DNA of 64,000 nucleotides, from the NCBI GenBank assembly GCA_029721435.1, contig CM056582.1:36042611-36106610 (forward strand), in the 5' to 3' direction. A program made the translations under genes and the position numbers. Under the pieces are notes generated by a model, which was given only the letters and a program-made list of their open reading frames with translations, was not told where the DNA came from and did not search any database. This document shows positions 10,263-63,500 of the stretch, piece after piece. The first letter of the stretch is position 1. Every line of letters starts with the position of its first letter. The DNA is from Gymnothorax reevesii. Its lineage: Eukaryota > Chordata > Actinopteri > Anguilliformes > Muraenidae.

Positions 10263-10289
10263 ACTGCAGCCGGCTTTTTAAAAACATTT

Positions 10290-11661: not shown

Positions 11662-11707
11662 TTGGAGAATCAAGATAGTCACAGGCGTACGTTTCACCAA
11701 GTTAAAC

Positions 11708-17958: not shown

Positions 17959-18160
17959 AATACTAACTGAAACTAACTAACTTGCAACAGAAAAAATGAA
18001 ATATTACGGCACTTGAGTGTGAAATAGGCCTAATAGTACATAAAAGCATGCATTATCTTTGAACATAAAATGCAGAAATGATACTTGACAAACAAAATCC
18101 ACACCAAAAATAGCATGATATTTAATACACCAATTGCGTATTATACCACACTAAAGTTTT

Positions 18161-19764: not shown

Positions 19765-19765
19765 A

Positions 19766-41387: not shown

Positions 41388-41968
41388 CTTTGTTTATTTT
41401 TTTTTCCAAAGCAAACAGTGTGTACAAAAAATAGAAATACAGTTATTGTACGGCTCATACAAAAACAGTTAATAATCAATTGTGCAGGAACAATAACTCC
41501 CTAACCCCACCGACACATGTATACACACCTACAAAATAGAAAACAGACAAGATACCATGACACCAAAACAATATATATATGTAATACAAAATAAACAAAG
41601 AACACCAGACAAAAAACAACATAAATTAAAAATAACTAATACAGCGTAAAACTGACCTAGAGTGAAGACCATACTATAACCTGCTGAGCAGACAGACACC
41701 CCCACTCAGAACAGCACATCCTGATTGTTCTCCACCAAACCCCACAGTGCCTCAATCAGGGATAAAGGGGAAGTCTGTCCTTTGTATAAATTTTAAAAAA
41801 GGGCCCCATATCTTCCCAAATTTTTTGGCTGAGCCATTCAAGGTCAGTCAAATTTTTTCAAGTTTAAGAAAAAAGAGAAGTTCTCTAAGCCAATGTGTAT
41901 GCGATGGAGGGGTCTTTGATTTCCAATTGGTAAGAATAAGTCTCCTCGCCACAAAGGTGGCAAAAGCC
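41388..41968 (-). mobile_element. L1/Tx1-type LINE copy a, 3' part (split by element X)
   Basis: The minus strand reads AFATFVARRLIL then LRELLFFLKLEK, the same C-terminal region as TTLLARRLILLKW of copy b. An A-rich tail ends near 41388. The sequence starts abruptly at the AAAGCC duplication (41963-41968). The 5' continuation is at 60559, where the frame ends KKGSLAF. Open frames on the plus strand here are antisense shadows. Confidence 0.85.
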
Positions 41969-42893
41969 TATGGAGTTAGACCAGTCTCATAATTAATAAA
42001 TGCACACAGAAGGATTCACAAATGTATATTGGGATTTATATATAAATGTCTCTCAACACACAAATATCTTTCAATGCACACACAAATATGTCTCATTCTA
42101 TATAAATGTAAAAATAATCCACATATAAATGAATAAAGTTCACAAATGTGTTTTTGATGCACACACAAATATAACTTGTGTTAAATATACATCACGGAAA
42201 TCCACAAATATCTTTATTTAAAAATATTTGCAATTTTCATCTAAATCATATATGTATATTGTGACATTTATTCACAAACTGTCGAATCTGCATTTGCAAA
42301 CCGCTTGCCATTTGTGAACTTTACTGCATTTGTGCGTGAATCTTTTTGAGACTCCCCTGCCGTGTCTCGATCCACGAATGCATTTTTTTTAACAGGGAAG
42401 GATGTGTACCCAATCAGATGTCTTCCTCCTTTCAGCCAATTACAAGAACGTCCCCCACGTGGGGGTGGGATTTACTCTTCAGCCAATCATATAAACGCGT
42501 CCACACAGCTTTGTTAATGCCTGCCACAACCAAGGACAGGCTGTCGTTCGACATGAACGTGGCGTCCGGCGATGGTAATGCGGAAAGTGTAAGTGAAACA
42601 TTATACAGGTTTACTTAGTTTTCCCAAGTTGTGAGGTTTGCCCATATAGTTAGAAAATAGTATGAAATATGTAGTTACGCGGTTTAAGTGTGTATCTAGC
42701 TTCATGAGCTAGCAAGCTATCATAGCATCAGCTAGCAGCGTATGCTAGCATTCCCGCATACTAAAAAGGTTAAGTTAACATCTTGCAATTAAATTGAAGT
42801 TACAGTAAATATAATGACTTTTTGTCAGGGTCTGTCGCCTCAAGTTGAGGTAGCAGCCTGGACTTTTGTCCAGTTATTGGCCCGGGAGCTGTC
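41969..42893 (+). repeat. Element X left terminal inverted repeat
   Basis: Starts TATGGAGTTAGACCAGTCTC. It contains CACAAATAT-rich subterminal sequence (42040-42250), a promoter, exon 1 (42553-42588), intron 1 and the start of exon 2. It aligns with the reverse complement of 59652-60558; identity looks near 90% by eye and was not computed. The 6-bp duplication AAAGCC precedes it. Confidence 0.9.
42436..42552 (+). promoter_or_regulatory. Promoter in left TIR of element X
   Basis: Two CCAAT boxes (about 42436 and 42484), a perfect 14-bp palindrome CCCCCACGTGGGGG with an E-box core at 42452-42465, and a TATA-like ATATAAA near 42489, about 60 bp before ATG 42553. The same order occurs in the right repeat. 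Promoter activity is inferred from site arrangement. Confidence 0.6.
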
Positions 42894-43524
42894 TGCCCCA
42901 ACCACATCTCCACAGAGCAGCACATCAGTCAAGGCTGGAGGCAGTGCTACAGGGCCTGTAAATGATGGTAGGGTGAGACAGGCCATGAAAAGGTGATTAA
43001 TTGAATTTATGCTGCTATAAGAACTTACGGGGTCCCATACTCTTGTTAGCATTTAAAATTGGTCTCTGTAACACTGCAATCATTGTGGTTATATCTGTAC
43101 TGAATCATTTTGGTGTATTTTATACTTGTCTCAAATAATTTTTATTTAAAATGAAGTAAACAAAACAATAACAAAAACTTTCTGGTTTCCATTACCAATG
43201 TTTGTGTCATTCCCATATCAGGCAGTTTCCCAGTATGTTTGCCAATGACCAGCCAAGAGGGAAAAGAAGGTTCTTGACCCCCCCACCTTGCATCGTGAAA
43301 ACGACAGACTTTCAAATGTATGTCCTTCCAGAACCCAATCAATTAACACCGAAAGGCTCAGAACTTGCTCATGCTGGCCTCAGGAAGAAGTTGGTAACTC
43401 TTCCAGACAACCTGAAACACAACGAGGTAAGCATATGGTGTACAATATTGTACAAGGCATAACTATAAAGAAAGATGTCAGACACTTGCTGAATGCTAAT
43501 TTTTATTTATTTATTTCATTTTTA

Positions 43525-43988
43525 TACGCCCGTCTTAAGACGGGACGTATTATGTCCTCACCCCCGTCTGTCTGTCTGTTGTCTGTTAGCAATTTCTTGT
43601 CCGGGGCATAACTCCTGAGCCGCTTGAGCTACATTCGTGACACTTCACATACACGTGCACCATCACCAGGCGCTGTGTCGCACACCATGATTTTGTTCAC
43701 CTGCTCAAGGTCACTGGCAAAGGTCAAAGGTCACATGGGGCCCAGATGGGGCTTGTCCGGAGCATAACTTCTCAACCGCCTCAGATACATCCATGATATT
43801 TCACACACACGTGTACCATCACTGAGCGGAGTGTTGCGTACCATGTTTACGGCCCTCCTTCCAAGGTCAAGGTCACGGACAAAGGTCACATGGGGCTGTT
43901 GTCTGTTGGATATTGGTATCATGTTGTCTGTCCACTTCCTCATCCATGTTCATGACGGGCATATTATGCACCGTTGGCCGTGCTCTTC

Positions 43989-44029
<41 letters not shown>

Positions 44030-44538
44030 CGCCCGTCTTAAGACAGGACGTATTATGTCATCACCCCCGTCCATCCGACCGTCCGTCCGTCCGTCCGTCC
44101 GTCCGTCTGTTGTCTGTTAGCAATTTCTTGTCCGGGGCATAACTCCTGAGCCGCTTGAGCTACATTCGTGATACTTCACATACACGTGCACCATCACCAG
44201 GCGCTGTGTCGCGCACCATGATTTCGTTCACCCGGTCAAGGTCAAGGTCACTGGCAAAGGTCAAAGGTCACATGGGGCTCAGATGGGGCTTGTCCGGAGC
44301 ATAACTTCTCAACCGCTTCAGATACATCCATGATATTTCACACACACGTGAACTATCACTGAGCGGAGTGTCGCGTACCATGTTTACGGCCCTCCCTCTA
44401 AGGTCACGGTCACGGACAAAGGTCAAAGCTCACATGGGGCTGTTGTCTGTTGGATATTGGTATCATGTCGTCTGTCCACTTCCTGATCCATGCTCATGAT
44501 GGGCGTATTAAGCACCCTTGGCGGTGCTCTTCTTGTTT
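43525..44538. repeat. Two tandem copies of a CGCCCGTCTTAAGAC element
   Basis: Copy 1 is about 43525-43992 and copy 2 about 44028-44536, both from ATACGCCCGTCTTAAGAC to GGCxGTGCTCTTCTTG. They are joined by an (ATT)n microsatellite at 43993-44028. Each starts with GTCCGTCCGT-type runs and has two inner units (GGGGCATAACTCCTGAGCCGC / GGAGCATAACTTCTCAACCGC). Copy 2 ends directly at the polypyrimidine/AG acceptor of the next exon (44542). Confidence 0.75.
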
Positions 44539-45464
44539 AAGATTGTGGCTCTACTTGAAGAACAATATCCAAAATTGAAGACCTTAAAAGGAGGTTGGAT
44601 GTTTTTCAAGTCAACAGGTAGAATTTTTCCTTTATCCCAATTACGAAAAATATTGATGTTAATATAAGAATATTATTAATGTTTGTCACATTCCAAACCC
44701 CAGAGGTGTGGTGTCATGTGACAACTTTGAATTACCATTCACGTCACTACTCAAGTGGTAGGCAACTGTATTTAAGTCCTCTACAACGTGTTTTCCTGAC
44801 AAATTCTAACTTTTGTTTGATGTTAATGAATACAAAATTGCAAGGTTTTAAAGAATTCTCACTTCTTTCAATTTTAAAACAGGTGGTAGCGGACATCGCA
44901 AGCACTCAGTAATTCCAACTGACTCAGAGGGTTACTCCACAGTGCTGCTCAAATCAGCATCTAACAATGGGAAAAATAGTGTTTGCATTTTCACTTCAGG
45001 AGACGCTTTCCACTGAACCACTTCCCTATGATCCAGTAAAGTTTGCCAAAATGCCACATGCATTATGTGTTGCAGTCAAATGCCATTGCAGCTGTTGCCG
45101 CTACATGTGGAGGGATGCCGTGGCACATTGCCTGTAAGCTGTTTCATTTATCTCATTTCTCAAATGTTTTTTAGCGCGTACAAATTACTGTTTCAAAGTC
45201 AATAGTCCTTTTTTTTCAATTTATTTTAGGAGAGCGAATCTGGGCCATGCCTTGATGAAGACTGTTTAGTCATTGAGCAGCCAGTCCCATGTACCACAGG
45301 CATGGAAGAATCTTTGGAGGTAATAGATGTTATTTACTATTGGTGTTTCCCGTTATTTGCATTTCAGTAAGGAAGCCTTAGCATTTATTCACCACGTACA
45401 GTAAGTTAGTCGATGTTTCAGAACATAATGATGTGAAGCTTGGAGGTATATAAATGGGCTTAAT

Positions 45465-45669
45465 GCACAGCCTCACTGCTTCCTGAACTTAAACCAGCTC
45501 TTTTATTTCTTGTCTTTCATTATTGGACACACTGATTAGTCCAGTTGTGTCTGATACTTCTTGTTGTGATTACTGTGGTCAGGCACACCTTGATTAATCA
45601 GTGTGTCCAGTAATGAAAGAAAGGAAATAAAGGAGCTGGTTTAACTTCAGGAAGTAGTGGAGCTGCGCA
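45465..45669. repeat. Foldback element, arms of about 75 nt
   Basis: The arm 45465-45538 is the inverse of 45595-45669 with few differences (for example GGACACACTGATTA / TAATCAGTGTGTCC), and the loop is about 56 nt. It lies in an intron region of the HECT-like gene between exons ending 45319 and starting 45812. Likely a foldback MITE. Confidence 0.8.
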
Positions 45670-46198
45670 TAAACTGCATTGGTGGGGCCATAACAAATAG
45701 AATATTTCCTGTAGCTAATGAATATCACAGCTCTGAAAGAGGTGTGTGAAACATAACACTTTTCTTACAATAATTTGATCTGTTTGAAAAGAAATGATAT
45801 TTTGTTTACAGGTTTGCCCAATCTGTCTCATCATACCCAGCTTATGTCCTCCCATCTCATGCAACCACGTGGTGATGGGTGAGAGGTTAATGATGAATTG
45901 TTTCAGATAAAAGATAGAAGGTAATAACATGTCCCAGGTGAGAGGAAGAACTTGTGTAAAGAGGATCATGTTTAATTTTAGTATCACCATAAGCTTTTAA
46001 TGTGCTTCTCTCTTTTCTGTGTTTTTTGGGTTCAGAGTTTACATCAGGGCTTGTCAACCTTTTGTAACTTAATGCACACCTCTTATTGCTAAAAAATGTC
46101 AGAGGAACACCTCTCCTCATAAATAAGAAAAAAACAACAAATAATATGACACGTGCTTCAGTTTATTTGAAATCTCTGGTTTTAGTGGCTCATTTCTA

Positions 46199-47402
46199 CA
46201 AAACCCAAAACCAGTGAAGTTGGCACGTTATGTAAATCGTAGATAAAAACAGAATGCAATGATTTGCAAATCCTTTTCGACTTATATTCAATTGAATACA
46301 CTGCAAAGACAAGATGTTTAATGTTCAAACTTTTTTATTTAGAATTCTAAGGCAGCAACACATTGCAAAAAAGTTGGCACAGGGGCCTTTTTACCACTGT
46401 GTTACATTGCCATTCCTTTCAACGACACTCAGTAAATGTTTGGGAACTGAGTAGACAATTTTTTGAAGCTTTTCAGGTGGAAAAGCTCTTTCCCATTCTT
46501 GCTTGATGTACTGCTTAAATTGTTCAACAGTCTGGGGTCTCTGTTGTCGTATTTTACGCTTCATTATGCGCCACACATTTTCAATGGGAGAAAGGCCTGG
46601 ACTACAGGCAGGCCAGACTAGTACCCACACTCTTTTACTACGGAGCCATGCTGTTGCAAACACAAGCAGAATGTGGCTTGGCATTGTCTTGCTGAAATAA
46701 GCAGGGGCATCCATGAAAAAGACGTTGCTTGGATGGCAACATATGTTGCTCCAAAACCTGTATGTACCTTTCAGCATTAGTGGTGCCTTCACATATGTGT
46801 AAGTTGCCCATGCCTTGGGCACTAATACACCCCCATACCATCACAGATGCTGGCTTTTGAACTTTGCGCCCATAACAGTCCGGATGGTTCTTTTCCTCTT
46901 TGGTACGGAGGACAGGACGTCCACAGTTTCCAAAAACAATTTGAAATGTGGACTCGTCAGACCACAGAACACTTTTCCACTTTGCATCAGTCCATCTGAG
47001 ATGAGCTTGGGCCCAGTGAAGCCGGCGGCGTTTCTGGGTTCTGTTGATAAATGGCTTTCGCTTTGCATTGTAGGGTTTTAACTTGCACTTGCAGATGTAG
47101 CGACGAACTGTAGTTACTGACAGTGGTTTTCTGAAGTGTTCCTGAGCCCATGTGGTGATGTCCTTTACAAACTGATGTCGGTTTTTGATGCAGTACCGCC
47201 TGAGCGATCGAAGGTCACGGGCTTTCAATGTTGGTTTTCGGCCTTGTCGCTTACGTGCAGTGATTTCTCCAGATTCTCTGAACCTTTTGACGATATTACG
47301 GACCGTAGATGATGAAATCCCTAAATTTCTGGCAATAGCTCGTTGAGGAATGTTGTTTTTAAACTGTTCGACAATCAGCTCACGCATTTGTTCAGTAAGG
47401 GG
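46199..47402 (-). mobile_element. Tc1-A copy 3, 5' truncated, transposase nearly readable
   Basis: The 3' terminal repeat starts CAAAACCCAAAACCAGTG at 46199 after TA. The transposase runs from MRELIVEQFKNN (47387) through RNIVKRFRESGEITARK, WSDEST, QQDNAKPH and PIENVW to a natural stop at 46391. One 1-bp insertion near 46665 shifts the frame just after the second Asp. The N-terminus and 5' terminal repeat are lost where the Harbinger-like element begins. All three acidic residues are kept. Confidence 0.9.
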
Positions 47403-47941
47403 TCTACTCTCCCATTAGCGCGTAAGTCCTTTTTTAGGCGCTTCGAGGTAAGCGCTTTTGAGTTACGCGTATTCTCCCCTACGCGCTTCGATCACGCCCA
47501 CAGCGCTTAACTTCAGAATGTAGGCGGCCTTATGAATGAGGTGTGACTGATCCAAAAGAGAGGCAGACTCTGTACAAAGCTCATTGATTATGGCAATCGG
47601 GAAAACATGGAAAAAGGATTTTCTGATTAACCATGAAAACGCATTTGTGGTCCATGGAAAACGCAAACCAGACTTTAAATTTGAATATCGTCGGCCTGCT
47701 GATAAAACCTTGTATCTCCAGACTGATAAGAAACGAAAACTCGTATGTCCACTATTCTTACATGCAAAATAAAATTTTTTTTTATTTTAAACTATATTTA
47801 TCCATTTATATTATCATTATTTTTTTTTTTTTTTCCTGTGAAGTTTGTCATTGTGAGCATACAAGGTTTTATATGGCGCTGTAATAGTAGGCCTATGTAT
47901 GTCCTACCAATTACAAGACGTAATTCAGACATCTCTTTTTT

Positions 47942-48030
47942 TATCCCCCGACGCGCGATTAGCGCGAAGCGGGGTATATAGCATTGGGCTCCGTCCGTAC
48001 GGACGCATAAAATTGCGGCGGCGGGGGATA
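47942..48030. repeat. 89-bp TIR element with CCGTCCGTACGG
   Basis: The ends are TATCCCCCG (47942-47950) and CGGGGGATA (48022-48030). The interior has palindromes CGCGCGATTAGCGCG and CCGTCCGTACGGACG. It looks like the smallest member of the TATCCC-type short TIR elements (compare 16371-16832). The rest of 48031-48820 shows no recognisable gene. Confidence 0.6.
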
Positions 48031-48875
48031 TGTTAGTGACAAACACTTGTTATTTCTTACTCTAGCCACCATAGCATTAAAGCTATGCAAACAAACAAAT
48101 TGCCGCTATAATGAAATAATAAATAAAGAATTTAGCGCTTCTCAATCAGCGCAATCAGATCATTGAAAATGTGCCCCTCCTACACCAGCCTGTTTGTTCC
48201 GTGGAAGACAGGGAAGAAGACAAAGGGAACATTCTAGTCACACAAAGACAATCAAAGACAGTTTATATGATCTCATTTAGAAATTGCGCACTTGAAAACT
48301 ACTCCGATGTCAGGTTTGCAACTAAAGGACATGGAAACGCTTTAACAAGGATTCTTTCCCCGCCCCGAAACCGCCTCAGCAATGACGGAATTCCATATCC
48401 ATAGCCTATCATCCTATTTGATTTGAGCGACACATTCACTTGAACTTGTGCCTAATACTTTATTATAATCAATTATCCCATTTACTGATAATGATTCTTC
48501 CCATGTCAGCTATTCTTTAAAGGCTAAAATTGATTAACAAATGGATAGCGCTCTGGTATTTGCCAGGGTAGGGCTCAATCTAGAGTAGCCTATTTAATAA
48601 TATCTTTATTCACACATTAAATTACACAGTATTACCAATGGTAAAACATTACTAGGACTCGAGTTAGTTAATTCAGATATCCTCAATTAGAAAATCGATC
48701 CCCTCACTCGTGAGAATATCACAACTTTTTAGATTATCACGAACATACAGGGCAGTCGCATTTGTTAATAGAACATGGAAGACAATGATGGTGACGTCGA
48801 GCCGAAAACCAAATTTCACAGATGTTGGTGTTGTATGGCAAGCAAGCAATGAGGCTGAGCCGAGGAATTAAGCTG

Positions 48876-49130
48876 CGAATCGTTCTGGATGTGGCGTCGG
48901 TGGGGAGATGTAAGCGCAGTATCCCCGATTTAAAGCATAAATGGAGAGATCTGCGGAGCGCTGTAAAAGCCAGGTTCTCTGCACACCGGAGAAGTGTACA
49001 TGCAGCAGGTGGTGGGCAACCATCATCCCCTGTGCATTTCACTGCACAGGAGGAGGGGATGGCATCCATTCTTTCTGCAGTGGAAGTGCATGGAGAAGAA
49101 CTTGAAGTGCCAACGAACTGCGTCAGACAC
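48876..49130 (+). pseudogene. Harbinger Myb/SANT-like DNA-binding protein, fragment
   Basis: Reads RCKRSIPDLKHKWRDLRSAV then KARFSAHRRS and FTAQEEGMASIL. The KxKW(R/K)DL helix is typical of the Myb/SANT-like partner protein of Harbinger transposases, which binds the ends and helps import the transposase. Only part of the protein remains, and the frame runs into the transposase remnant lying on the other strand. Confidence 0.7.
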
Positions 49131-49490
49131 CTTGACACAGACGCCTGTGATATGTGTATGACATCACCAGCCACTCTCTGAAACAACCCAGATGCCAGGA
49201 CCGACAGCGCAGTTCTGAAGTTGATGACCACGGGTATGTTTTGTGGATAATTGCTGCGGCTAGATAGTTGTTCATCCAGAAGTCGGCAAAGATAGATGAT
49301 TGCCTCATGCACGGTCCAGGCGAAAGCGCTGGATGCCCTCGATTTTTGTTAGTCCCAGGATGTCCAAGCGAATATATGCGTGTTCGTCTTCGAGCTCCGC
49401 GCGCTCCTCTTACTCTTTCCCAATAACGCAAGAGTGCAAGCAAATGCAGGACTGGCATTTCGGTTTTAGATTTTGAGGGCATGGTAGAAT
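49131..49490 (-). pseudogene. Harbinger (HARBI1-like) transposase, N-terminal fragment
   Basis: VLASGLFQRVAGDVIHISQA then SVSRCLTQFV matches the HTH-containing N-terminus of HARBI1-like transposases (ASGSFQ..G..gISQ.tvSR). It joins sequence coding on the other strand for the Myb-like protein at about 49130, so the DDE domain and spacer were deleted together. A frameshift lies near 49312. Confidence 0.72.
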
Positions 49491-50531
49491 GATGGTCTTA
49501 TGTATACTCGTATTAATTGTTTTGCGCTTGTAATTGGATTGGAGAGTTGGCTTATGCGTAATATCATGTAACGATTTCGTTTAACAAATTATAATGGCTT
49601 TGAGAAATGTAGTTTAGAAATAAGGAAGAACAATCGAATATTTAATGTCTCAGCCTTTACCATGTTAAATAAAATAAAATTAATGATAAAATTCGGCCGA
49701 TAACCGACATCAAACGCAATATTCCATTTCGCCTAATGTTGGCGCTTGACCTTAATACAGTCCTCAAAAGCGCTTAACAGAAAAAGCGCGTAAGCCAGGG
49801 GGAGAATACGCTTAAGTGTTACTTGCATGAGAAACCAAGAATGGACAGCGCTCAACCTAGCGTAGCAGCCAGTTTACCATGGGGAGGGGAAATAGCAGGA
49901 CCCTCAGTTCCACACTTAGCTGCAGGTAATTGCCCCACAACAATTACAAATATGGTATATATATTGTTACAAAACAATGCTTTTAAAAGAACTTTGATCC
50001 AGCATATTCAAAAATGAATATTGATCTCAAATACCTACGCATTAAACTGCAGAGCAATTTGAAAGGCCCTTTGCATCAGTCACTTTTTTTTTTTTTTTTT
50101 TCTCTTTTCATAAATTACAGTTTCAGCCTGGGAGAATGAAGCCGACCCCCAAAAGACTTGCAAGTTGTTCAGAGAAGAACTACTTGACCATTGCTCTGAA
50201 TGTCCACGCCTCTCTGTGTCACTTAACATGTTTGACACAGAAGAAGATAAGGACAGTGCATTCATTCTGTTTTACAAGCAGACTAATGTTAACTGGGCAG
50301 CTCCATTCATGTGCAGGCTGAGAGGTATTAATGAACGGTTTATCTGAATATAAGCAGTTATCTGAATTAAATTTTGCCTGTAGTTGAGTGCATGTTCCGA
50401 TAGCGTCACCTTTTTATTTGAAGTGGTTGTTTTTTTTCTTTAAGGAGATGCAGCAGTCGGTGAAGGTGTCACTCGCCATGTTTTGTCCATGGCCATGCAA
50501 AAATTGAAGACGGGCTTCAGACTAAATTTAG

Positions 50532-51709
50532 GTTTGTATATACATGAGTGAGAGTGAGAGTGTATCATCTGTCATCTTTTCATGTTAAAATGATTAATTG
50601 TAACCTGTTCCTTGGACACTAAGGTGAAATGAGGGATTGGCATTGACGTAAACACTGATTTGAAATAAACCAGATGTTCCTGCTTAAAGGGAAGGTTTGG
50701 GGGTTGTATGAGATATTTATCATTACTAGTCAGGGTGTTACCTGCCATAGTTCATAATAAGCTCATCCTATGGGAAAGCAGCGTGATGCACCGTTTTAAA
50801 GACCTGTTGCTTGTGGTCCTGTTTATAGCAGCACAATGCTCCCCTTTATTTTATCTCAAAGAAGCCCCACCTGAAATACAGTACAGCTGCCGTTAAAACC
50901 AAAGAGACGGCGTTGGTTCACGCCACGTTATCTCGAACATTTCCTCCTTCTTACCCATTTCTAACCATGATCTAACCAATGAGCCGTATCACAGGACAAT
51001 TTAACGCCAGTAATAACCACATGTGACTCCACGGAACTGAATGTAGTACCGCGTGTAAGGTATAGAATAGAGGGAATTTTGACTGTTAGAATTACTTGTA
51101 TTTGCTGTTATGTATTTTAACATCTTTTTATTTTCTCTTGCAGCGAAAGTGCAAGTGAGATCTTATGCGACCTCTGGAAAGCGCGTGGCTGATCCTCTGT
51201 TTAAAAAGCCAAGCATGAACAAGAAAAAAATGGCCTATTATGAAATATTCGACAGCGAAATATATGAAATTGTGTTCTTGAAAGAAATTTTTTTGGTATT
51301 TTAAATATGTCTTTTTATTGCAGAATCTTCAGCGAAGTTTGCCGCAATTGATTTATTGGTTTTGAAAAGCCAACCGCAATATAGGCCTAAATAAACAAAT
51401 TGGCAATATACAACTTAATCGCCTGTGAGCTTATGCTTACGTTATTCTCCGAAATTATGCGTTTTCGGACCTGCAGAGGCGTGAGGTTGTCTCTCGCCAA
51501 GGAGTCAATCTTTGTCTTAAACTTTGGGGAAATGCGTCGTATCGTGACAGGTTCCATAGTTGTGAATGTGATGTCAGTTTATGGTTGGGCATTTTATTGA
51601 AAATTTCTGCCACGCGCTGATCAGGTCATTAATTCTTTAATAGGCAACAATGAGCTTAAAGGGAATATTAGGGTGACAATGAGTGATAAACAGACATAAC
51701 ACGAACAGG
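50532..51709. other. Element X interior, no clear exon
   Basis: A possible acceptor (CTCTTGCAG at about 51134-51142) precedes an open stretch to 51304 with KKPSMNKKKMAYYEIF, unlike any domain I know. No HECT C-lobe motif was found here on the plus strand. Confidence 0.35.
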
Positions 51710-51825
51710 GGTGCGTTTCCCAAAATCACAGATGCTAACTTACGTAGTTGGGCTCATTGACTGTGAATGGACGAACTATGTAAGTTGCTAACTTAGTTAG
51801 CAACTATGCTTTTGGGAAACACACT
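51710..51825. mobile_element. GGYGCGTTTCCC MITE, copy 2
   Basis: Same family as 11880-11985, in opposite relative order: GGTGCGTTTCCCAAAA at left, TTTTGGGAAACACAC at right, with GTTAGCAACTATG inside. The target duplication is not clear. It lies inside element X. The stretch 51826-52448 shows no recognisable feature. Confidence 0.8.
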
Positions 51826-52448
51826 CCAGAGCTGTATTGAATCAGTGCCAAGTGTATCCGCTTTTAATTCCGTGAATTCAGTTTACGAAAGAGCCATTCA
51901 GTTTTAAGTGACAATGTCCTTTAGAGAAAAGATATTGAGCAGATCTTTTTTTAAATTCCGTTTCCTTATTGATAGATACTATAGAATAAGCTTACTAAAC
52001 ATCCTGTGTAAGGTTCCGCAAATAGTTTATTTTGCTTTTTTTTGTGCATTCAGGAGTCGTTATGGTCGAACTAAATTCATATTGTACGCAATTATTTTAT
52101 AGTTGCAAGCTTTGCGAACATTATGTTTGAACATCTGAATGGTTATGAGAAGTCATTAAAACAAATACAGACGATGCAATACGTTTCGAAAAATTGGTTA
52201 AAAATGGCCAATTAGCATTTTAAAACGAAACGGTATATAGGCCTAATTCTAAAAACATTCAAGTTCTTTCCCTAAATGAATTTTACTGAGACAGGGTGTG
52301 AGGAATCTTCGATTGCAGCTGGGTTGACCGGTTCCGCAATTTGACAGATTCCGCAATTTGCAGAAATCAAACTTTTTTTTGCGGGAAAACGACCTTGCTG
52401 TCAGCCTTGAGTTTGACACCGCTAGAACGGTAAATTATTGTGGATTTA

Positions 52449-53337
52449 AGTCTTAACTATCGTTTCGAGATATTTGGCTTCATAGAGAAATAAATGCCCA
52501 ATAACTGTTGCTTGCCGCTGCAGCAGTAGGCTACCAAATCAACGCTTGTGATGGGGCGCACTGTGCAGTGTGTGGCTGTTAAATATGTGCATTCCTGGGA
52601 TTCATCACGTTGTGTCATTATGATCGGAAATTATCGTATAATTGACCTTGTAAATCCCAATGTCGTACTAGTGATACTTTTTCATCAACACCCATTGGGA
52701 GTGACTGCTTGTCATTTGACTAGTTCCGCAAACGCCATTTTGTAGGTTTTCAAACTTGTTTATTTTTTCTGAAATAATTTTATGAAAGTTTATTGTAGTC
52801 AGTGTGAAATAAAACATTTTCCCTCCCTCCAGAACTATAGCTACTGTTTTTCTGTGGCTCAACGGGCTGATCATGACTCATGTCCTGTGTTATTCTGAAC
52901 AGTCTCATCCTGATCATTTTAACGTATTGGCATTTTACTTGAATTGGAAAGAGTAGAGAGAATCATCCGTAGTCGCTGAAAGCAGTTGAATATCGATGGA
53001 TGCACAAATCATCATGAACTGAGGCCAGTGCACGTGGATTCCAGCTGACACAATGTCGACACACGGAACAGTTAGCCATAAATTTGACCAATTATTGTGA
53101 TATCCCCTATAGAGTAATGCTGGCTAAAATTGGTGGAAAATACATGTGTCTGTTTCGTTGTGGCCAGGGGCACGCAATAATGCCAATAAACAAAGAATAG
53201 GCTATAATAAGTTCGGCCCGACAAAGGGCGCCGTTTGCGAAACTGGAAATTATTTGCGGAACCAATCAAAGGACGTGCCACTGAAAAATGACTGTGCAAG
53301 GCTTTAATCCTAATGACTGAAGAAAACTAACTGATCC
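52449..53337 (+). repeat. Repeat R1, copy b
   Basis: Direct counterpart of 17038-17958. Both copies share CTTAACTATCGTTTCGAGATA, CACTGTGCAGTGTGTGGC and CACTGAAAAATGACTGTGCA. Class unknown. It lies between the two convergent genes of element X. Confidence 0.8.
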
Positions 53338-53350
53338 ACAAAAATCAATA

Positions 53351-53454
53351 CTGAGCAGCACTGGAGACCCCAGGTAACTCTTCCCTAAACGTACCTCTTC
53401 ACAGATTTTGGTACGTTTAGGGAGGAGTTACCTGGGATCTCCAGTGCTGCTCAG
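53351..53454. repeat. Near-perfect 45-nt hairpin with 14-nt loop
   Basis: The arm 53351-53395 (CTGAGCAGCACTGGAGA..) is inverted at 53410-53454 with 43 of 45 positions matching. It lies between the 3' ends of the two convergent genes of element X. It could be a tiny foldback MITE or a precursor-like hairpin RNA. The sequence alone does not decide. Confidence 0.85.
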
Positions 53455-54201
53455 TTAACCAGTTTAACCCCACAGTCATTTTGTTGTTTCAAATCCAGTA
53501 TATATAATATTCTTAAGATTCTTAAAACACAAAATGTAGAACTCTGGACTGAAATGAACATATAAATTATCCTGAAAATGTCATTAATTCCCATAATGTA
53601 GTAAGGTATAACATTCAGTAAAAATGTAATTACAGTATCAGATTATTTTAGATTATTCAGGACATTACATTATAGGGTGCTACAGACCTTTACAATGATT
53701 GGTCCCCTACACAGTAGTAAAGCAACATATGTTTTTTTTGTAAAGGAGTTTTTATTTTACACAAATTTCATGCATGAGAAGCACAAACATTTTCTTGTTA
53801 AGACCCCCCCCCCAATACAAAAACACATTTGAAAAAACTCTACATCAATCTCCGTCCAGAATTCATGATCTGTTCACTAAATATAATCCACAGACATAGT
53901 GGTGAGCAGTTTTAACTGGGAACTATTTTTTTTATCAAACTACATGCTCCTGAGTCTTTTCTTTCAAAATTAAAGCCCCCATCACTAACTGTATCTCAAC
54001 ATGGAACTCAGATTACTCTTCAAAAGTGAGATGCCCAGACAAAGGTAGTATCAATCAATTCACATTCACTGTGTTTTGTTGGGACAATGTTATAGGGATC
54101 CTGTGAGCCAAGCATCAGGCTCGCTCAAAGTGCTTTCCATTAACTTTTTAGTCAAAGACACAAGGAGCCACTAGAAAGAGGCAAGAAAGCTGTATGATCT
54201 C
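53455..54201. other. Element X interior, 3' side of integrase-like gene
   Basis: AT-rich with T- and C-runs (about 53730 and 53807). No exon recognised. It probably includes the 3'UTR of the minus-strand gene that ends at 54202. Confidence 0.4.
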
Positions 54202-55947
54202 TTATCTTGCTTCAAGTAAGTTCTCAATGTATTGGATGGTGCTGAGATATATGTCCACTCCGAAACAGTCGGACTGCTGCAATGGATTGATGTTGTCTTG
54301 AAGTGCCATCATTTCAGGATCCGAGAGAGGACTGTCCAGTGCAGGGACACTGACACCCTGATGAGGCTCAGTTGCGTATCCACTCTCCTCCCATTGAATC
54401 TCTGGGATGACGATACCCTGACAAAGAAATTTGTATGTATAAACATTACTCACATTAAATGCACTGTACCCACTGGCTTTTATATCGATTCAGGATCAAG
54501 AGAAGATTTTGACATGACCTTTCAACAAGACTTACCACAGGATTAGGATCTGCAACGGGGTTGAGGGCCTGGCCCGCCTGCCACAACTGATTTGGTGTCA
54601 GGTTTTGCTCTGTCCTGATTGGATGGTTGTCCCATGCATCAATGAAGACATCCAGGCTGGCCTGAATGCGTGGTAGGAAAACACAGTGGCAGCACAATAT
54701 GTGCAGGACATTGTTGATGTCGAGCAGGTGTTCGTCCTCAAGAGAGTGCAGGATGTTGTAGTATACACCAGTAACACTCATGAACACATCACGCCACAGA
54801 CGTTCGATTCTGTATTTGGAAAAAAAATTAAGAAAGGAGACATTTTTCAAAATGGTTGTACCTTAAAAACCTTGAAATAATTGTTCACTTCGCTGCAGCC
54901 ATTAAATTAATAGCAATGTTTCTAACTGATTATTGTATACATTTTTAAAACTGATTATTGTATACATTTTTAAAAGAATCAGCTGATTGGAGTGAGTACC
55001 ATATATTATAAATAGAATTTTAAGTTAATTTTTCTTTTAAAAACTTTGATCATGGCCAGTAGATTTTTTGGTGAAAAAATTGTCTAGTCTTACAATGGCT
55101 TATTGAGGGAATGCATAATACCTTAAAACTTCCAAAAAGAAGTTGAACTCACCGCTGATTGTGTACACTTTTCCCTGCAATGAACCTGTTAATGTCAGTT
55201 TCACGAACTGTGAACATTAATTCTGCTATTCCCACATTTTCTCCTCCGTGATCTCCTCTCACTCTGAAAATAAAACATGAATTATACTCTATATCTCAAG
55301 GATATAATTATGCAGCATTAAAAAACTGTCAAGTTCAAATGTCACAAACACATTTAAGGTTCCATTTAAAAAAAAAAAAAGATCTTCACACATTAACTAC
55401 TTAATCATATTTTTCAGCAGTGACCTCAGCCAAATTAATTAATAAACTTAACATTAATACATCTCTTAAGTTCCATCTAAAATTCCTATAAAATAAACAT
55501 GATCAAACATTTACTTTTTAAAAATCTAAAATGATAAATGAAAGGAGTTAATTCAGGTGTTATTCTTAATTTATGTCAGGGGAAAGGCTTTATCTTAGTG
55601 TAAACTTAGACAACAATTTCGAGTGGAAGATTTCAGAATTTTAAATTGGGCCGCCACATTTTTAAGTTTGGGAGTGGCTGCAGTATTAAATTCTGTGTTA
55701 TCATCTTTAACACATGTACATGCGTCAGTACAGCTAAGTCCAGTTTCAGAGCATAATGTAGTGGCATGGAAGGGTTTTTGAGGGCTAATAACGTGTAGGT
55801 TCAAGCATATGTTCAGACTAAGCTACTTTGATCTAACTACAAAAGCACTATTACAGTGAAAGCACTGCTTTATTTGCAATTAAAAAGTTGTCTCAATAGT
55901 AAGTGTTCTAATAATAATTATAATTAAATAAAATTAATACCTCAGAG

Positions 55948-57867
55948 CAGTGGTTCTCAACAGGTCTGGCTTCAGGACCCACCATCACCCCTTAATGATA
56001 AGCCGTGAGCCAAATAAAAAAAAGTCAACTTTTCAAATTGATTTAATGTAACATTCAGACACACTTCAGAAACTGTACTCTTAAAGTTTATTCAGTCACT
56101 TATTCTGGCAAAAAAAATTAAATTAAAAATAAAATTAAAAGTGCAAATATGACAACAGTGCACTATGGAATAAATTCAGTTTCTTCAGTTTTTATCCACA
56201 AACTCAAAATAAATTAAACAAAAAGTGCCATTCAAAAAGATTCAAGTATACAAAATTAACTTTTCTTCTTATTGGCTCAGTTGGTAAATAGTGAAAAACA
56301 TTGTGCTTTGAAGAATATTAAGCAGCAGTAACTTCAGCCTTACTGACATCATAGATCTGTGTCTGGAAGACTTAATGGGAGAGCTGGGGAGCGGCATCAG
56401 GCAGCGGTATATTATGCTTGCGTTCTATGCTCGGTAATGCCGCTTGCACACTGGACGCGAAACAAATTTTTCGCAGGACTGATTACAGTCAAAGTCAATG
56501 CAAAGAGCTATCGACTTTACTTGGTCTTTTTATTCGTCTGTTTTCTTCCTTTGAAGATAGACAACAGTCTTTATTCGGTCTTTCTTTTGAAAATTACTCA
56601 GATGGATCGAACAGATTCACGCTTTATTTCCACAGCAGAGATAAAATAGTGCTTGCAATCAGAGAGCAAATCAATTCCATGACCATTGACAGTGTGAATA
56701 TATTATCGCATGCACGATCAAGACTGTCCGACGCGAAATGCAAAATACTCCATGTCCGGCACCCAGCAAAAATTAAAGTAGCCGAATGATATGAGAACAG
56801 ATTTACAACGGAATAAAGAATAAAAATACATATACATCACCAACCAACAGAACATCCAAAACATTACCCGCAAATAAATTAATCGCAGTGTTCGTTGGAT
56901 TTTCTGTTGTTAAAATGTTTCTTTTCATTCTTTATTTCGTTATCAATCTGTTCTAATCGTCCTCTTTTTTTTTTGGCTGTCAGACACGGAGGCATTGTAC
57001 ATTGTCCCGTGCCAATGTCGACTCGCTTTACTGAGCAGAGCTTAAACAGAAACATTGATTGAAATTCTCGATGCTCATCTTGAAGAACTGAGCCCTCTTA
57101 TCAAAACATTCACGTTTAATATCTAAAAGAGTCAGTAGATTTGAAGAAATAAAAAAAAACAATAGTAGACTGTCGGACACGGAGATATATTAAAACCCTG
57201 TCAGACTTTCTGACACAAGACACTGCTTTCAACGCAATCTGTCGAGCGAAAATTCGTTTCGCGTCCAGTGTGCAAGCAGCTTAATACTAGGCTACTATAA
57301 CTGTCACTTAGGTTTTATCGTTTATAGTGGGGGAAAGGAATACAGCGTGATTGCTTTGATCTCGTACTGAGTTAAGATCACATGTTGAGAATAAATGTGT
57401 AACGTATCTTGCATTGTTGTCCATGCATGTTAATCCCAAAATTTTAAACAGCAACAGGCTGTAATAATAGGAACACGCTATCCATCGTTTCTCTTGCCAA
57501 TGAGCAATATTTGACTCGGCTGTGTTATACCCAAACACGCCTTTGCCAACTTGCGCTGGAAGGAGGGGCAGAGGCGGGACAGACGAGTACTTGCGCCAGG
57601 CTACGCCGGGCACGAAATTGCAGCATACGCCTGGACACACCCCGTTGGCGCGGCGCACCCCCCATTCGCCGCGCCTGCGCCTGGTCTACGAAATTAGAGC
57701 CCCTAGTGTTAAGGAGTGCGAATAGACGGCACTCCGCAGCATAAAAAAAAATCCTCTTCAAAATAAAAGCACAGATTTTTTTATTTGACCCGGCAAAGGC
57801 CTGCAACCCAATGAAAATGGGTCCACGACCCACTTTTGGGTCGCGACCCACCAGTTGAGAATCACTG
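55948..57867. mobile_element. hAT-like element (CAGTGGTTCTCAAC ends)
   Basis: The left end is CAGTGGTTCTCAACAGG, and the right end read inward is CAGTGATTCTCAACTGGTGGG, typical hAT terminal repeats. The GGGTCGCGACCC block is near the right end. No transposase domain and no matching 8-bp duplication were found. It ends the exon of the integrase-like gene at 57868. Confidence 0.7.
56439..57280. mobile_element. 842-bp TIR element nested in the hAT
   Basis: Arms of about 35 nt, GCYGCTTGCACACTGGACGC onward at 56439-56474 and inverted at 57246-57280, with very few differences. The interior has short open frames without a recognised domain. The flanks (TAAT at left, TTAA at right) do not give a clear duplication. 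Confidence 0.75.
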
Positions 57868-58117
57868 GTCTACATCCACGTTGTCAACCAGAGCACGCAA
57901 TAAAACTAAATTCTGATGGCAAACAAACTGCAACCCTTCTAGGTCAAGAGGCTGCATCTCCAAGATGTGTAGCAGTCGGTCATGCAATCTCTGAAGGATG
58001 TCATGCTTCAGTGATTCCTAGGGGAAAAAATAAATAAATAACTATTTCATTGCAAATAAGGATTGCACAATGACTTTTTGTTAGCTGCCAGTAAAGAAGG
58101 CAATTTTAATTACTAAC

Positions 58118-59072
58118 TAGAAAAGCACTCGGAGAGCGCAGACCTCCGCCAAGCACAACATTTCCCTCCATATTGCGACTTCCACCATAGATATTAGTCT
58201 TACATTTATTTTATCTTCATTTTTAGATTCCTTGACCATGAAAACATGGCAATTTGATTCATAATGCTATATGAATATTAGTTCCACAGCGTCTTGGCTG
58301 TTTGAAGATGCCTGTTGCATGTTTCTAGCTTCTTTTTTTTTTTCTTATGATGCAAGTTTCAAAGATCTATTTTTTCATATTCTGGATCATACAATCCAGA
58401 TTTATACATTATCTGGCTCAATCTTTGATATCTTTGTGCAGATGTGTCCGCCAGTGGACGTGGAGCTGCCGTTTATGCACGCAGTTACAATATTCTATCA
58501 CTAGATGGCAAACCAGGATCAGTTATTGAATATTCACCAGTATCAGTTATCGAATATTCACACAACTACCAGTAAAGTGAAATAAGAAGTGACTCTTCAT
58601 TCCCCCAATATCTGTGCTTTTTTAATTTCATTGGGAGTCCCCGGTATAATAAACTCTAAAGGAAATAATTCTTTTGCGTATTTGTATCGTTTTGTCAGTC
58701 ACAAACAAGAGATGTTGCGGTACCACCTCTGACACCGGATCGGAGCAGATTGCAGAACATGTTTGAAACTTACTCTGTATTTTTTTTCCTCCAAGTGCCC
58801 TGACCATTTTTGGTGGAGTTATATGCATAAATGTTGAAAATGGCCCCATCTCCCGATGTTACAGAATTCTTTAAAAAATTCCTGGATCCAGACGGAGATA
58901 CGAATAACTTCCAAAATCTAATCATTTCTTCCTTATACCAATCTGTACAATCCCCGATAATTTCATCAAAATCCGTCCATAAATTTTTGAGTTATTTTGG
59001 AAACCAACAGACAAACAAACAAACAAACAAACCCAGGCAAAAACATAACCTCCTTGGCGGAGGTAATTAATG
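58118..59072. repeat. Non-autonomous repeat with ACCTCCGCCAAG inverted ends
   Basis: Starts CTAGAAAAGCACTCGGAGAG with GACCTCCGCCAAG, and ends CCTCCTTGGCGGAGGTAATT, so a 12-nt block is inverted at the two ends. An (ACAA)n run lies near 59010. No coding domain. The stretch 59073-59651 holds no recognised exon. Confidence 0.65.
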
Positions 59073-59651
59073 CTAAGTTTACACTCATCTGCTATTCCTG
59101 AATATTTCCGCTGCTGATGTGGCATAAGTATATTGGCCAGGTAAGTTGCTATGTTTATTTACTAAAGCGCTAACCTCTAATCTCTCCATGTGGTATTTTT
59201 GTGTGTATGGTTTTACTGGTGCAAGGAAATAAAAATAACAGTCTGTCTTATTTCCGCCTAAATTCATGTATTCTCATCATGTATGTCTCATAAAGCATTT
59301 AATGAGTGTACATGTTTTCAATACCATTTACATAAAAACCAACATATGATTTATGAATCATGGTAAAAATGATGAAGAACATTCATTTTGGCTATCTCAT
59401 CATTTATAGATACAGGCTATTGGGAAACACTTCACAATGATTTGCCATTTTTAAAAGGTGGGTCCCCAGAAAAATAATTTGGGTAATACTGGTCTAATGT
59501 TACATGGATCATATACTGGCTGATGTTAGGCAGTTAATGATCCTTGGTTGACTGGAAGCATTGTATAGCTTACTTGTCAGCTAGCCATGATGTCACATCT
59601 ATAATGTCTCAAGTATTCATTACCAAAACATACTTAATTATGCATGCCAAG

Positions 59652-60558
59652 GCCAGGCCAACAGCTGGACAAATGTCCGAGCTGCTGCCTGACAGACCCT
59701 GTCAAACAATCATTATATTTACTGTAACTTCAATTTAATTGCAAGATGTTAACTTAACCTTTTTAGTATGCAGGAACGCTAGCATACGCTGCTAGCTGAT
59801 GCTATCATATCTCGCTAGCTCATGAAGCTGGATACACACATAAACCGCGTAACTATTTATTTCATACTATTTTCTAACTATATGGGCAAACCTCACAACT
59901 TGGGAAAACTAAGTAAACCTGTATAATGTTTCACTTCCACTTTCCGCATTACCACCGCCAGACGCCATGTTCATGTCCAATGACAGCCTGTCCTTGGCTG
60001 TGGCAGGCATTAACAATACTGTGCGGACCCGTTTATATGATTGGCTGAAGAGTACATCCCACCCCCACGTGGGGGACGTTCTTGTGATTGGCTGAAAAGA
60101 AGGAAGACATCTGATTGGCTACACATCCTTCCCTGTTAAAAATAATGAATTCGTGGATCAAGACACAGCAGGGGAGTCTCAAAAAGATTCTGCACAAATG
60201 CAGCGAAGTTCACAAATGGCGAGCAGTTCGCAAATGCAGATAAGACAGTTTGTGAATAAATGTCACAATATACATATATGATTTAGATGAAAATTGCAAA
60301 TTTTTTAAAATAAAGATATTTGTGGATTTCCGTGATATTTATTTAACACAAGTTATATTTGTGTGTGCATCAAAAACACATTTGTGTACTTTATTCATTT
60401 ATATGCGGATTATTTTTACATGTATATAGAATGAGAAATATTTGTGTGTGCATTGAAAAATATTTGTTTGGTGAGAGACATTTGTATATCAATCTCAATA
60501 TACATTTGTGAATCCTTCTGTGTGCATTTATTCATTATGAGACTGATATAACTCCATA
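59652..60558 (-). repeat. Element X right terminal inverted repeat
   Basis: Read on the minus strand it begins TATGGAGTTATATCAGTCTC and follows the left repeat through the CACAAATAT block, promoter, exon 1, intron and start of exon 2. Exon 1 here has MNMASGGGNAES where the left has MNVASGDGNAES. The splice donor after exon 1 is GGAAGT instead of GTAAGT. AAAGCC (60559-60564) follows on the plus strand. Confidence 0.9.
59975..60095 (-). promoter_or_regulatory. Promoter in right TIR of element X
   Basis: Same order as the left promoter: a CCAAT box, the palindrome CCCCCACGTGGGGG at 60062-60075, a second CCAAT box and ATATAAA (plus TTTATAT near 60032), before the ATG whose complement is at 59972-59974. 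It would drive the minus-strand integrase-like gene. Inferred from site arrangement. Confidence 0.6.
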
Positions 60559-63500
60559 AAAGCCAAGCTACCTTTTTTGTCTTTCGAAAGTGAAAATGGA
60601 GATGGACAAACCCTAAACAATGCGCCAAGGGCACATGGCTCTATATTTTCCTCTAAAAATTCTGACAAAGTCCTAAATATATCTGTCCAATAATTATGAA
60701 GGGAGGGATAAAGCCAAAACACATGCATTTAGTCTGCAGTAGACTGTTGACATCTATCACAAGCTGGAGACACATTATCAGAGATCTTGGACAGTCAAGC
60801 TTTAGTCTGATGAGCGCGATGCACCACTTTAAGTTGAATGAGGGCTTGCCTTGCTCATATAGAAGACTGATTAACACGTTCTAAAATTTCTTTCCAATCC
60901 TCTTCGGAGATTGTCGCTCTTAAGTCATCCTCCCAGCAGGTTTTCAGTGAGATCAATGAGCTGGAGCGAACTGCACAGATCAGGTCATAAATATATGAGA
61001 TTGCTCCCTTCAAGGTTGGAATTGGGGTGAAAAAATTGTCCAAGGCTGAGGTATCAGGTAAATTAGGAAACATGGTAAAAGTTCTACGAGCAAAGTCTCG
61101 GACCTGTAAATATCTAAAAAAAAAGATGTGTGGGAAGTGAATATTTGGCTGACAGCTGCCTGAAATGAGACAAAAACACTGTCAAGGGTCCTTAAATGTA
61201 TGAATCCCAAGGTTTAGCCAAGTTAAGAATGTACTATCTAACAAAGAAGTAGGGAACAAATGGTTAGATGCAAGGGGGGCGTGAAGGGAGAAAGACTGAA
61301 AGCCAAAATATCGCTTAAACTGGACCCATATGTTCAGGGAGGCTTAAACAATGACATTCTTAGTATACGGAGAAGTGGAAGACAGAATAGGAGAATGGAA
61401 CAGGGCTGTTAAAGAAATGGGTTTGACAGAGTTGAATTCAATAGCGAGCCACATGGGGGGGGGGTGTATCAAAAGCCTCAAGTTGAAACCAGTAATTGAG
61501 GATCCTGATATTAGCTGACCAGTAGTAGAACCTAAAATTGGGCAGGATTTAGGTTTCTGTAAGTACTGCTTGCGAATCCTAGGAGCCTTTTTATTTCATA
61601 TGAATTCACTAATACTAATATCTACATTAGTAAAGAAGGTTCGGGAAAGGAAAAAAGGAATACATTGAAATAAATAGGAAAACCGCGGGAGGACATTCAT
61701 TTTAACGGCATTAATCCGTGCAGCCAAAGACAAATTAAGCTGAGACCAGTGCTCAAAATCTGCCTGGACTCGTGACAGCAAGGGGGCAAAATTTGCTTCA
61801 TAGAGGTCTCCAAATCTACGCATGACATGAACTCCAAGATATGTAAATGTAAGATCAGCAATTTTAAAGGGAAAGTTGTGCAAAGGGAAGCTCCTAGCAG
61901 ATGGGTTGATGGGGAAAATCTCACTCTTGTTCAGATTCAGTTTATGAGCAGAAATCTGACTGAATGACTCTAAAGTAGAAAGGGCAGCAGGTATAGAACT
62001 GGCCAAGTCGGAAACATACAGAAGAAGATCATCTGCATACAAAGAAACTTTTAGTTCCAGATTGTTCGTTAGAATGCCAGAAATCTGAGGGTTAGATCAT
62101 AAAGCAACCTAAAGAGGTTCGATTGCAACCGCAAACAGTAGGGGAGTTAAAGGACAGCCCTGTCTGGTGGAGCGATGGAGATGGAAATACTCAGACTGGG
62201 TGTTGTTGGTCTTGACTGAGGCCATCGGTGACGAGTAGAGCAGTTTAACCCAGGCAACAAAATTCTCACCAAAACCAAAATTTTTCAAAGTATAATCTAG
62301 ATAGTTCCACTCCACTCTATCGAACGCCTTTTCCGCATCAAGTGATATCAACGCCTCTTGAGTGTTAAGGGAGGAGTCACAGGAGATGGTATTGAACAGC
62401 CGTCTAAGGTTAGAAAAGAAATATCTATTCTGGATGAATCCGGGGTTTGATCTGGAGAGATAATAGTAGGGAGAATAGAATCCAGGCGTGATGCCAGCAA
62501 CTTTGAGAGCAACTTAAAGTCCACATTTAATAAGCTTATTGGGCGATAGGAGGAGCATTCGCAAGGGTCCTTCCCTTTCTTTAAAGGCAAAGAAATAGAA
62601 GCCTGATTAAGGGTCTGGGGAGGCAACCAAGATCGAAGGATTCCTTAAAGATGTTCAACAGAAGAGGAGCTAATTCGTGAGAAATCTTCTTATAAAAATC
62701 AGATGGAAATCCATCAGGACCCAGACACTTCCCGCTTTGCAAAGAAGATATTGCCGTCTGAAGTTCTGCCAAAGTAACTGGTACTTCCAGCTCCTTTACG
62801 GTAGTTTGCTCAATTGAGAGAATATTCAAACAGCCAAAAAAATTTTCGAAATTTGGAATAAAATTCTGAGTAAAGGGACATATAAAAATCTTTAAAGGTG
62901 TTATTAATTTTAGGAAGGTCAGTAGTTAGTCCAGAGTTTGAACGGATTTGGGGGATTAAATTAGATGTTGAAGTCTGGCGTAACTGGTGTGCCAGCAGCT
63001 TGCAGGCCCTCTCTCCCTGTCGTAAAATGTTGATTTTTTTTGAAGTAAAAGCTCAGTAGTTCGGTTTGAAGTGAGAACATTATATTGAGCCAGTAAAGTT
63101 ATTCGCTCTTTGTATAAGTCAGGGACAGGAGAAGTAGAATACAAGGCATCAATTTGGAATATACGATGTGGAATCTCAGCCAGTTTATCCTTCCTACATT
63201 TCTCCTAAATTTTGAGTAAGAAATGCTCTCCCCCCTTAGATAGGCCTTCAAGGTCTCCCACAGGACAGAGGCAGAAACCTCTGGTACTTTTTTACAACTT
63301 AAAAAAAACGAAGATAAGTCTTTTAACGAAGATAACAAAGTCCTCACTGAGGAGCAGGCTTGCATTCAGGTGCCATGGCGCACATGTGGTGAAAAATTTC
63401 CTAAAATAAATGTTCATTGAAACAGGGAAATGGTCAGAGATAATAATAGTCTTGTATTTACAAGCAGAAACGGATGAGAGCAGTCTATTATCAACTAAAA

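Follow-up and report, generated by a model that had tools for sequence, protein, structure and literature searches.

Transposons of the IS3EU/GingerRoot superfamily, as described in the accessible extracts of PMC10045372, have TA..TA ends, usually make 6-bp target-site duplications, and encode an integrase-type DDE transposase with no HHCC zinc motif upstream of its core. Fungal IS3EU elements that carry TET genes, described in extracts of PMC12730594, have TAYGG..CCRTA ends and 6-bp duplications and encode TET/JBP and alpha-kinase genes. We have analysed a 64,000-bp stretch of the Gymnothorax reevesii genome (hereafter the window; C10:36042611-36106610) and searched the 2.17-Gb assembly from which it comes. 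The window contains an 18.6-kb element that is very probably a dead copy of a fish DNA transposon of the IS3EU superfamily, with convergent genes for a HECT-type E3 ubiquitin ligase and a DDE transposase.

This element resembles the IS3EU/GingerRoot transposons, so far as those extracts describe them, in its TA..TA ends, 6-bp duplications, and integrase-type DDE transposase, to which the fish form adds a HECT E3 gene, a convergent gene order, and arms of 0.87-1.45 kb in which a promoter and start-codon exon seem to lie. With the TET-carrying fungal elements, on the same partial view, it shares ends, 6-bp duplications, a multigene content, and opposite orientation of transposase and enzyme gene, whereas the fungal cargo is a TET/JBP dioxygenase and an alpha-kinase and the fish cargo a HECT ligase. 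The nearest functional parallel is MuDR of maize, in which two convergent genes, for a transposase and a helper, are read inward from near-identical inverted-repeat promoters; MuDR differs in its unrelated transposase, its helper, which is not an E3 ligase, its 9-bp duplication, and its arms of about 220 bp. Transposons carrying ULP1 or OTU proteases also encode an enzyme of the ubiquitin or SUMO pathway, but those enzymes remove modifiers, whereas a HECT ligase adds ubiquitin. Our literature search found no paper naming both HECT and IS3EU (Repbase entries, outside that search, may contain such elements), a search for a ubiquitin-ligase passenger of a teleost DNA transposon found nothing, and neither did one for zebrafish transposons with HECT and integrase core domains. 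The killifish paper PMC12763893, in the part accessible, mentions IS3EU and adds nothing on gene content. The locus presents a known superfamily in a two-gene form that has apparently not been described.

The insertion and its relatives

Bases 41969-60558 are one large DNA transposon with two genes, inserted once into an L1 element, with AAAGCC on both sides. An interrupted L1 frame flanked by this hexamer had been proposed in a preliminary description made from the sequence, and both parts of the proposal hold: the hexamers are present at both ends, and joining the L1 flanks with a single AAAGCC gives an uninterrupted 94-amino-acid frame across the junction (..KKGSLAFATFVARRL..). A 400-base query made of the joined flanks found eight places, namely the two window flanks, three insert-free L1 copies, and three matches that stop short of the junction. 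The insert-free copies (C18:919134-919469, C10:38393114-38393403, and C17:15360946-15361270) cover query positions 1-336, 1-302, and 1-315 at 90, 87, and 85% identity and cross the junction without the insert, so the two halves of the L1 were once adjacent; the duplicated hexamer is single in all three and reads AAAGCA in one. The boundary features are as follows.

41963..41968, no strand: target-site duplication AAAGCC, left copy, from the sequence; present once in insert-free L1 copies
41969..42836, + strand: left terminal inverted repeat, starting TATGGAGTTAG; aligned to the right arm
59691..60558, - strand: right terminal inverted repeat, matching the left arm at 93% across 869 columns
60559..60564, no strand: target-site duplication AAAGCC, right copy, from the sequence; present once in insert-free L1 copies

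In inverted alignment the arms (41969-42836 and 59691-60558) show 811 identities in 869 columns (93%, E=0.0), and inward of them similarity is patchy (a 38-bp match at 82%). Running this alignment upheld the inverted ends of the preliminary description and slightly shortened its figure of about 0.9 kb. The element ends read TATGGAGTTAGACC.. and ..CTCCATA (TATGGAG..CTCCATA). The motif ACAAATRT is concentrated in the outer 400 bp of each arm, with 6 occurrences against 0.23 expected on the left and 7 against 0.22 on the right. Arms, duplication, and insert-free L1 copies agree on one insertion rather than scattered repeats, as had been supposed, and paired arms also occur elsewhere in the genome; neither of the two conditions named in the preliminary description as refuting it applies.

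A search with the left arm (40 of 230 candidates scored, 48 matches listed) returned the two window arms, an arm at C9:74392142 (95%) with its partial right arm (83%), and many matches at 69-85%. The C9 copy matches the window element in six collinear segments at 95.2-96.2%. In a genome search with the fish transposase P0062 (90 of 515 candidates scored), the window and C9 loci were the only ones above 64% identity among the matches listed. The two copies share 95.4% identity in their left arms, against 93.1% between the window's own two arms; divergence of the arms thus seems to predate separation of the copies. A long terminal repeat (LTR) retrotransposon lies within the C9 copy (L009-L011, joined positions 6738-12753). 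It has a long open frame, and its two 509-bp LTRs are identical, which makes this probably a young insertion.

An apparently complete relative lies at C2:45246632-45261445. It spans 14,814 bp, has 1,446-bp arms at 100% identity and TCTCAG on both sides, and contains both genes. Its ends read TATGGAGTTAAAT../..ATTTAACTCCATA, with TATGGAG..CTCCATA present. The HECT exons lie on the forward strand (L050 1927-7103) and the transposase exons on the reverse strand (joined positions 12905-9062), and stops occur only where the HECT alignments cross presumed introns. GT/AG is visible at many exon edges and an apparent GC donor at one. Identical arms suggest recent movement, though arm homogenisation could also have produced them. 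The motif TTTGCAAATA occurs 5 times in the C2 arm against 0.01 expected.

A search with the C2 arm (40 scored of 1,212 initial candidates) listed 43 matches, of which 38 repeat its terminal 554 bp at 94-96%; some matches represent both arms of a single short element. Thirteen short copies were read at both ends, four of them with both ends among the matches listed and nine on the plus strand with the far end predicted at about 2.75 kb. An exact 6-bp duplication is present in 10 of the 13; the others have TCACTG/TCACCG (one base off), a 5-bp GTGAG, and none. TATGGAG..CTCCATA is present in 13 of 13, the copies having been picked by their match to the first bases of C2. The duplications in these short copies are strong evidence that the C2 family inserts with a 6-bp stagger. 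Among the relatives L012-L028, paired ends are rare and no exact duplication was found.

The two genes and a probable first exon in the arms

The preliminary description recognised a HECT-ligase-like and an integrase-like gene, and both identities are borne out by protein matches, with PF24764 (DDE transposase) found in the window and in relatives and PF00632 (HECT) in relatives. The exons in the window are listed below.

42517..42588, + strand: putative HECT exon 1 in the left arm, ..MNVASGDGNAES, then GTAAGT
42829..42993, + strand: putative HECT exon 2, GLSPQVEVAAWTFVQLLARELS..RVRQAMKR
43220..43429, + strand: HECT gene exon, QFPSMFANDQPRGKRRF..; 89.7% identical to P0214
44539..45322, + strand: HECT exons with a cysteine/histidine-rich region, frame breaks, and stops; protein match
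49838..50533, + strand: HECT middle exons RMDSAQP.., ENEADPQKTC.., and GDAAVGEGV..; protein match
54205..54811, - strand: transposase exons encoding the C-terminus and the presumed catalytic Glu (RIERLWRDV); protein match
55152..55274, - strand: transposase exon with the presumed second catalytic Asp; protein match
57865..58017, - strand: transposase exon 2, ESLKHDILQRLHDR.., truncated at about 57868
59939..60010, - strand: putative transposase exon 1 in the right arm, ..MNMASGGGNAES; donor GGAAGT instead of GTAAGT

The right gene, in reverse, matches the fish transposases P0062 and P0063 (475-477 amino acids). PF24764 matches the window open reading frame 54455-54862 with E=2.1e-28 and P0062 with E=1.9e-72. 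Judged from other DDE enzymes, the presumed catalytic residues are D224, D281, and E316 (numbered as in P0062); in 20 fish transposases D224 and D281 are invariant and E316 is at least 90% conserved, with 34 residues between D281 and E316. An AlphaFold2 model of P0062 (predicted local distance difference test [pLDDT] 76, predicted template-modelling score [pTM] 0.53) matched TnsB, MuA, and retroviral integrases in Foldseek, with E down to 5.6e-06. A Pfam scan of P0062 and P0063 to E 0.05 listed no zinc-binding integrase family upstream of the core; matches of helix-turn-helix type there are weak, all under the Pfam cut-offs. Named protein relatives are almost all from ray-finned fish; many entries are nameless, and cluster P0135 also includes a ferret name. 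One transposase, P0094, is labelled a neurotoxin in its source, a name that looks wrong.

The left gene, on the forward strand, has exons matching proteins of fish HECT genes such as P0214 and P0182. PF00632 is found above the Pfam cut-off in P0184 (E=4.7e-13), P0182 (2.1e-11), and P0187 (4.1e-11). The catalytic Cys618 is invariant in 15 of 15 aligned proteins, several of them only 35-45% identical to the first, and HECT core positions are invariant too; the C9 copy retains TCF. For a model of P0184 (pLDDT 67, pTM 0.50), Foldseek matched the HECT domains of UBR5, Smurf2, and NEDD4, with E down to 5.6e-13. A C..C..H..C pattern that occurs twice before the HECT domain looks like zinc fingers; the Pfam scan reported no zinc-finger family for the HECT proteins. 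Source names of some HECT proteins look wrong, being UPL1 or G2/M phase-specific E3 ligase-like (P0197 of Labeo rohita, P0210, P0219).

It is quite likely that both genes share a first exon located in the arms. In each window arm an ATG (42517; reversed 60010) is preceded by three CCAAT boxes and a TATAAA at -27, so that the inner left arm combines CCAAT boxes, a TATA-like box, and the putative exon 1. On the left, ..MNVASGDGNAES is followed by GTAAGT and the next acceptor continues GLSPQVEVAAWTFVQLLARELS; the predicted cod proteins P0221, P0235, and P0238 begin MASGNGNHDPSGLSPQAEVAAR, and their start MASGNGNHDPSGLSPQAEVAARAFVQLLARELS, or one change from it, fits an exon 1-exon 2 splice. On the right, ..MNMASGGGNAES is followed by an acceptor that continues ESLKHDILQRLHDR; the fish transposase P0062 begins MASSTSESVKREILQ, and its start MASSTSESVKREILQRLQDR was compared with right-arm exons 1 and 2. 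The donor of the right arm is lost in the window copy (GGAAGT). In the C2 family the arm encodes MSSQQ followed by GTGGGT, HECT exon 2 starts KPEYAHIE, and the Astyanax protein P0227 begins MSSQQKPEYAHIE; an exact MSSQQ start was found in 0 of 120 transposases. In a further lineage the HECT protein P0197 (Labeo) starts MANEERD, and the transposases P0071 (Umbra) and P0075 (Leuciscus) start MANEERN and MANEERD. All these protein starts are gene predictions, not transcripts. P0221, P0235, P0238, and P0227 have no Pfam domain listed and match the N-terminal part of the HECT gene. In two families such a start-codon exon appears to lie within the arm, which would give both genes one promoter and one first exon.

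Pairing across the genome and a proposed role of the ligase

A search with the HECT protein P0187 (75 of 188 candidates scored) gave 79 matches, which merged at 12 kb into 48 loci. A transposase match lies within 30 kb at 32 of these, in intervals that make up 0.4% of the genome, and at 31 of the 32, the window and C9 copies included, the two genes are convergent. The sole nonconvergent locus (C8:91.23-91.25 Mb) is a merge of three tandem units, each convergent singly. Conversely, a HECT match lies within 35 kb of 28 of 39 transposase loci with split exons and of 0 of 30 with a continuous frame, classes assigned by hand from alignment shape in the P0062 search; at a few split-exon loci, such as C10:45566107, the HECT match could be part of an adjacent element. 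Consecutive locus tags in Dissostichus mawsoni, F7725_017169 and F7725_017170, belong to a transposase fragment and a HECT protein, respectively. The recurrent pairing, in a fixed order, links a ubiquitin ligase to a DNA transposon.

Three side observations concern these loci. The tandem units at C8:91227872-91247592, each a transposase (+) and a HECT gene (-) at 6.7-6.8 kb spacing, suggest duplication of a whole element or block. The contig of the window has a further transposase/HECT pair at C10:36362352-36373485, some 0.26 Mb away. Six PF24764 loci with long continuous frames (C1:88699109, C19:33522548, C11:2361694, C9:61872811, C5:38594076, and C19:21048014), several with near-equal scores and none with a HECT match within 35 kb, are possibly a young HECT-free group.

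We propose that the transposase would bind CAAAT-type motifs, which are repeated within the outermost 400 bp of the arms, and join the TA ends to positions 6 bp apart on the two target strands. The element might leave its site by cut-and-paste or by copy-out, the route used by bacterial IS3 elements. Two copies of one arm promoter, with its CCAAT boxes and TATA-like box, would drive both genes through a start-codon exon spliced in phase 0, so that transposase and E3 would be made together and have related N-terminal peptides. The E3 would most likely aid the element, either through modification of a host factor for defence or repair or through removal of the transposase from the new insertion.

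That the E3 is in one way or another a helper of the element is likely. The alternative that fares best is that it is a passenger with no role in the life cycle of the element, which we consider unlikely. Short copies too small for either gene have spread, and 11 of the 39 split-exon transposase loci have no HECT match within 35 kb among the matches listed, as would suit a dispensable cargo; set against this, the catalytic Cys and HECT core have stayed invariant among the 15 proteins despite their divergence, and many loci with different sequences carry the pair. We advance more tentatively, as a conjecture that is less likely than not to hold in full, that each arm is a self-contained start to a gene, with binding repeats for the transposase, a promoter, a start codon, and a first exon, that arm homogenisation keeps the genes co-expressed with the same N-terminal peptide, and that the partner is a dedicated transposon E3 acting on host silencing or on the transposase-DNA complex. 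If true, a transposon-borne ubiquitin system would be widespread in teleosts. The complete-looking C2 copy and its many short relatives make both the movement of animal IS3EU elements and the role of the ligase testable.

Superfamily assignment and decay of the window copy

Termini of the IS3EU kind (TA..TA, TAYGG..CCRTA) occur in both the window and C2 elements, and 6-bp duplications are present at the window (AAAGCC), at C2 (TCTCAG), and in 10 of 13 short copies. The transposase has the expected DDE integrase core by PF24764, by D224/D281/E316, and by fold match; a HECT domain with its catalytic Cys is found in relatives, and the window copy has lost that part. The preliminary description could name no classical superfamily with certainty, and on termini, duplication length, and transposase type IS3EU can now be named.

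A Ginger1/Ginger2 or Polinton-type element, which also has a catalytic domain like those of retroviral integrases, is a very improbable substitute. Ginger elements have TG..CA ends and 4-bp duplications, contradicted here by TA..TA and 6 bp, and on that ground Ginger1/Ginger2 was rejected. Polintons carry PolB, packaging ATPase, and capsid genes; in the C2 stretch only the two genes were recognised, and no PolB, ATPase, or capsid, when stop-to-stop frames of at least 90 amino acids were inspected by eye, no profile scan being made.

A number of observations weigh against reading the locus as an IS3EU element with paired, arm-initiated genes. Sixteen of the 48 HECT loci have no transposase match within 30 kb. 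Four further HECT/transposase loci were read, and ends with a duplication were established only at C2. At C10b the arms span 973 bp at 97% identity, but neither a TATGG end nor a duplication was found; the stretch read at C11 gave one 13-kb TATATC pair, likely due to chance, the far end perhaps lying beyond it; and at the C8 locus read neither ends nor duplication were found. The short relatives L017 and L018, with paired 75% similar ends, have no exact duplication, and the C9 copy is without its outer right arm, in whose place stands an apparent tandem array. In the PF00632 profile search P0202 fell under the cut-off and P0190 gave no match, and TM-scores by query length are low (0.2-0.4) for both structural models. 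Exon 1 and the promoter are predicted, and the TATA-like box lies only 27 bp ahead of the first ATG, on which account a second in-frame ATG (42553 in the left arm) may be the true start.

The unpaired HECT loci would also suit a HECT gene that is a chance neighbour, or a host gene beside scattered repeats, and some sources do use a host-gene name, such as G2/M phase-specific E3 ubiquitin-protein ligase-like (P0210, P0219). Convergence at 31 of 32 paired loci, in intervals covering so little of the genome, and the presence at C2 of both genes between identical arms and one TCTCAG duplication leave this explanation scarcely probable. Transposon genes are suggested to be among the fish genes whose annotation reads uncharacterized, G2/M phase-specific E3 ligase-like, or integrase core. 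Least credible of all is that the single 18.6-kb insertion is only apparent, produced by several unrelated repeats or by faulty assembly. Several nested repeats do occur within the interval, but this reading must contend with matching arms, the duplication, the restored L1 frame, three uninterrupted L1 copies, and six collinear segments in common with C9 at 95-96%.

The transposon in the window should produce neither enzyme and is a fossil: coding exons are lost and the remaining HECT exons have stops and frame breaks (near 45000). Only the N-terminal and middle parts of its HECT gene are left, the last exon being GDAAVGEGV (50533). The catalytic HECT exons are lost, and the N-terminal half of the transposase has gone with its helix-turn-helix-like and first-Asp (D224) exons; all of these are retained in the C9 copy. 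About half of the 18.6 kb is absent from C9, the sole other close copy among the matches listed, and includes the following.

46196..47403, - strand: nested Tc1/mariner-type transposon, a later insertion; another copy at window 18543-19766, 91%
50878..53348, no strand: sequence absent from C9, replacing the catalytic HECT exons; comparison with the C9 copy
55948..57867, no strand: sequence absent from C9, replacing the helix-turn-helix-like and first-Asp transposase exons; comparison with the C9 copy

Within the second of these, 52446-53334 matches window 17037-17970 at 84.5%. The 18.6 kb of the preliminary description stands as the length of the insertion and fails as a native size, the apparently complete relative having 14.8 kb; in the window copy nested repeats have been gained and coding exons lost. 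The value of the window fossil is that it led to that relative and to the genome-wide pattern. Two smaller features were noted: window 43564-44537 contains two direct repeats of about 440 bp, 92% identical and about 100 bp apart, with none in the C9 copy, and 47527-48186 matches sequence immediately left of the C9 copy (81-90%), so that the same repeat family is present at both places.

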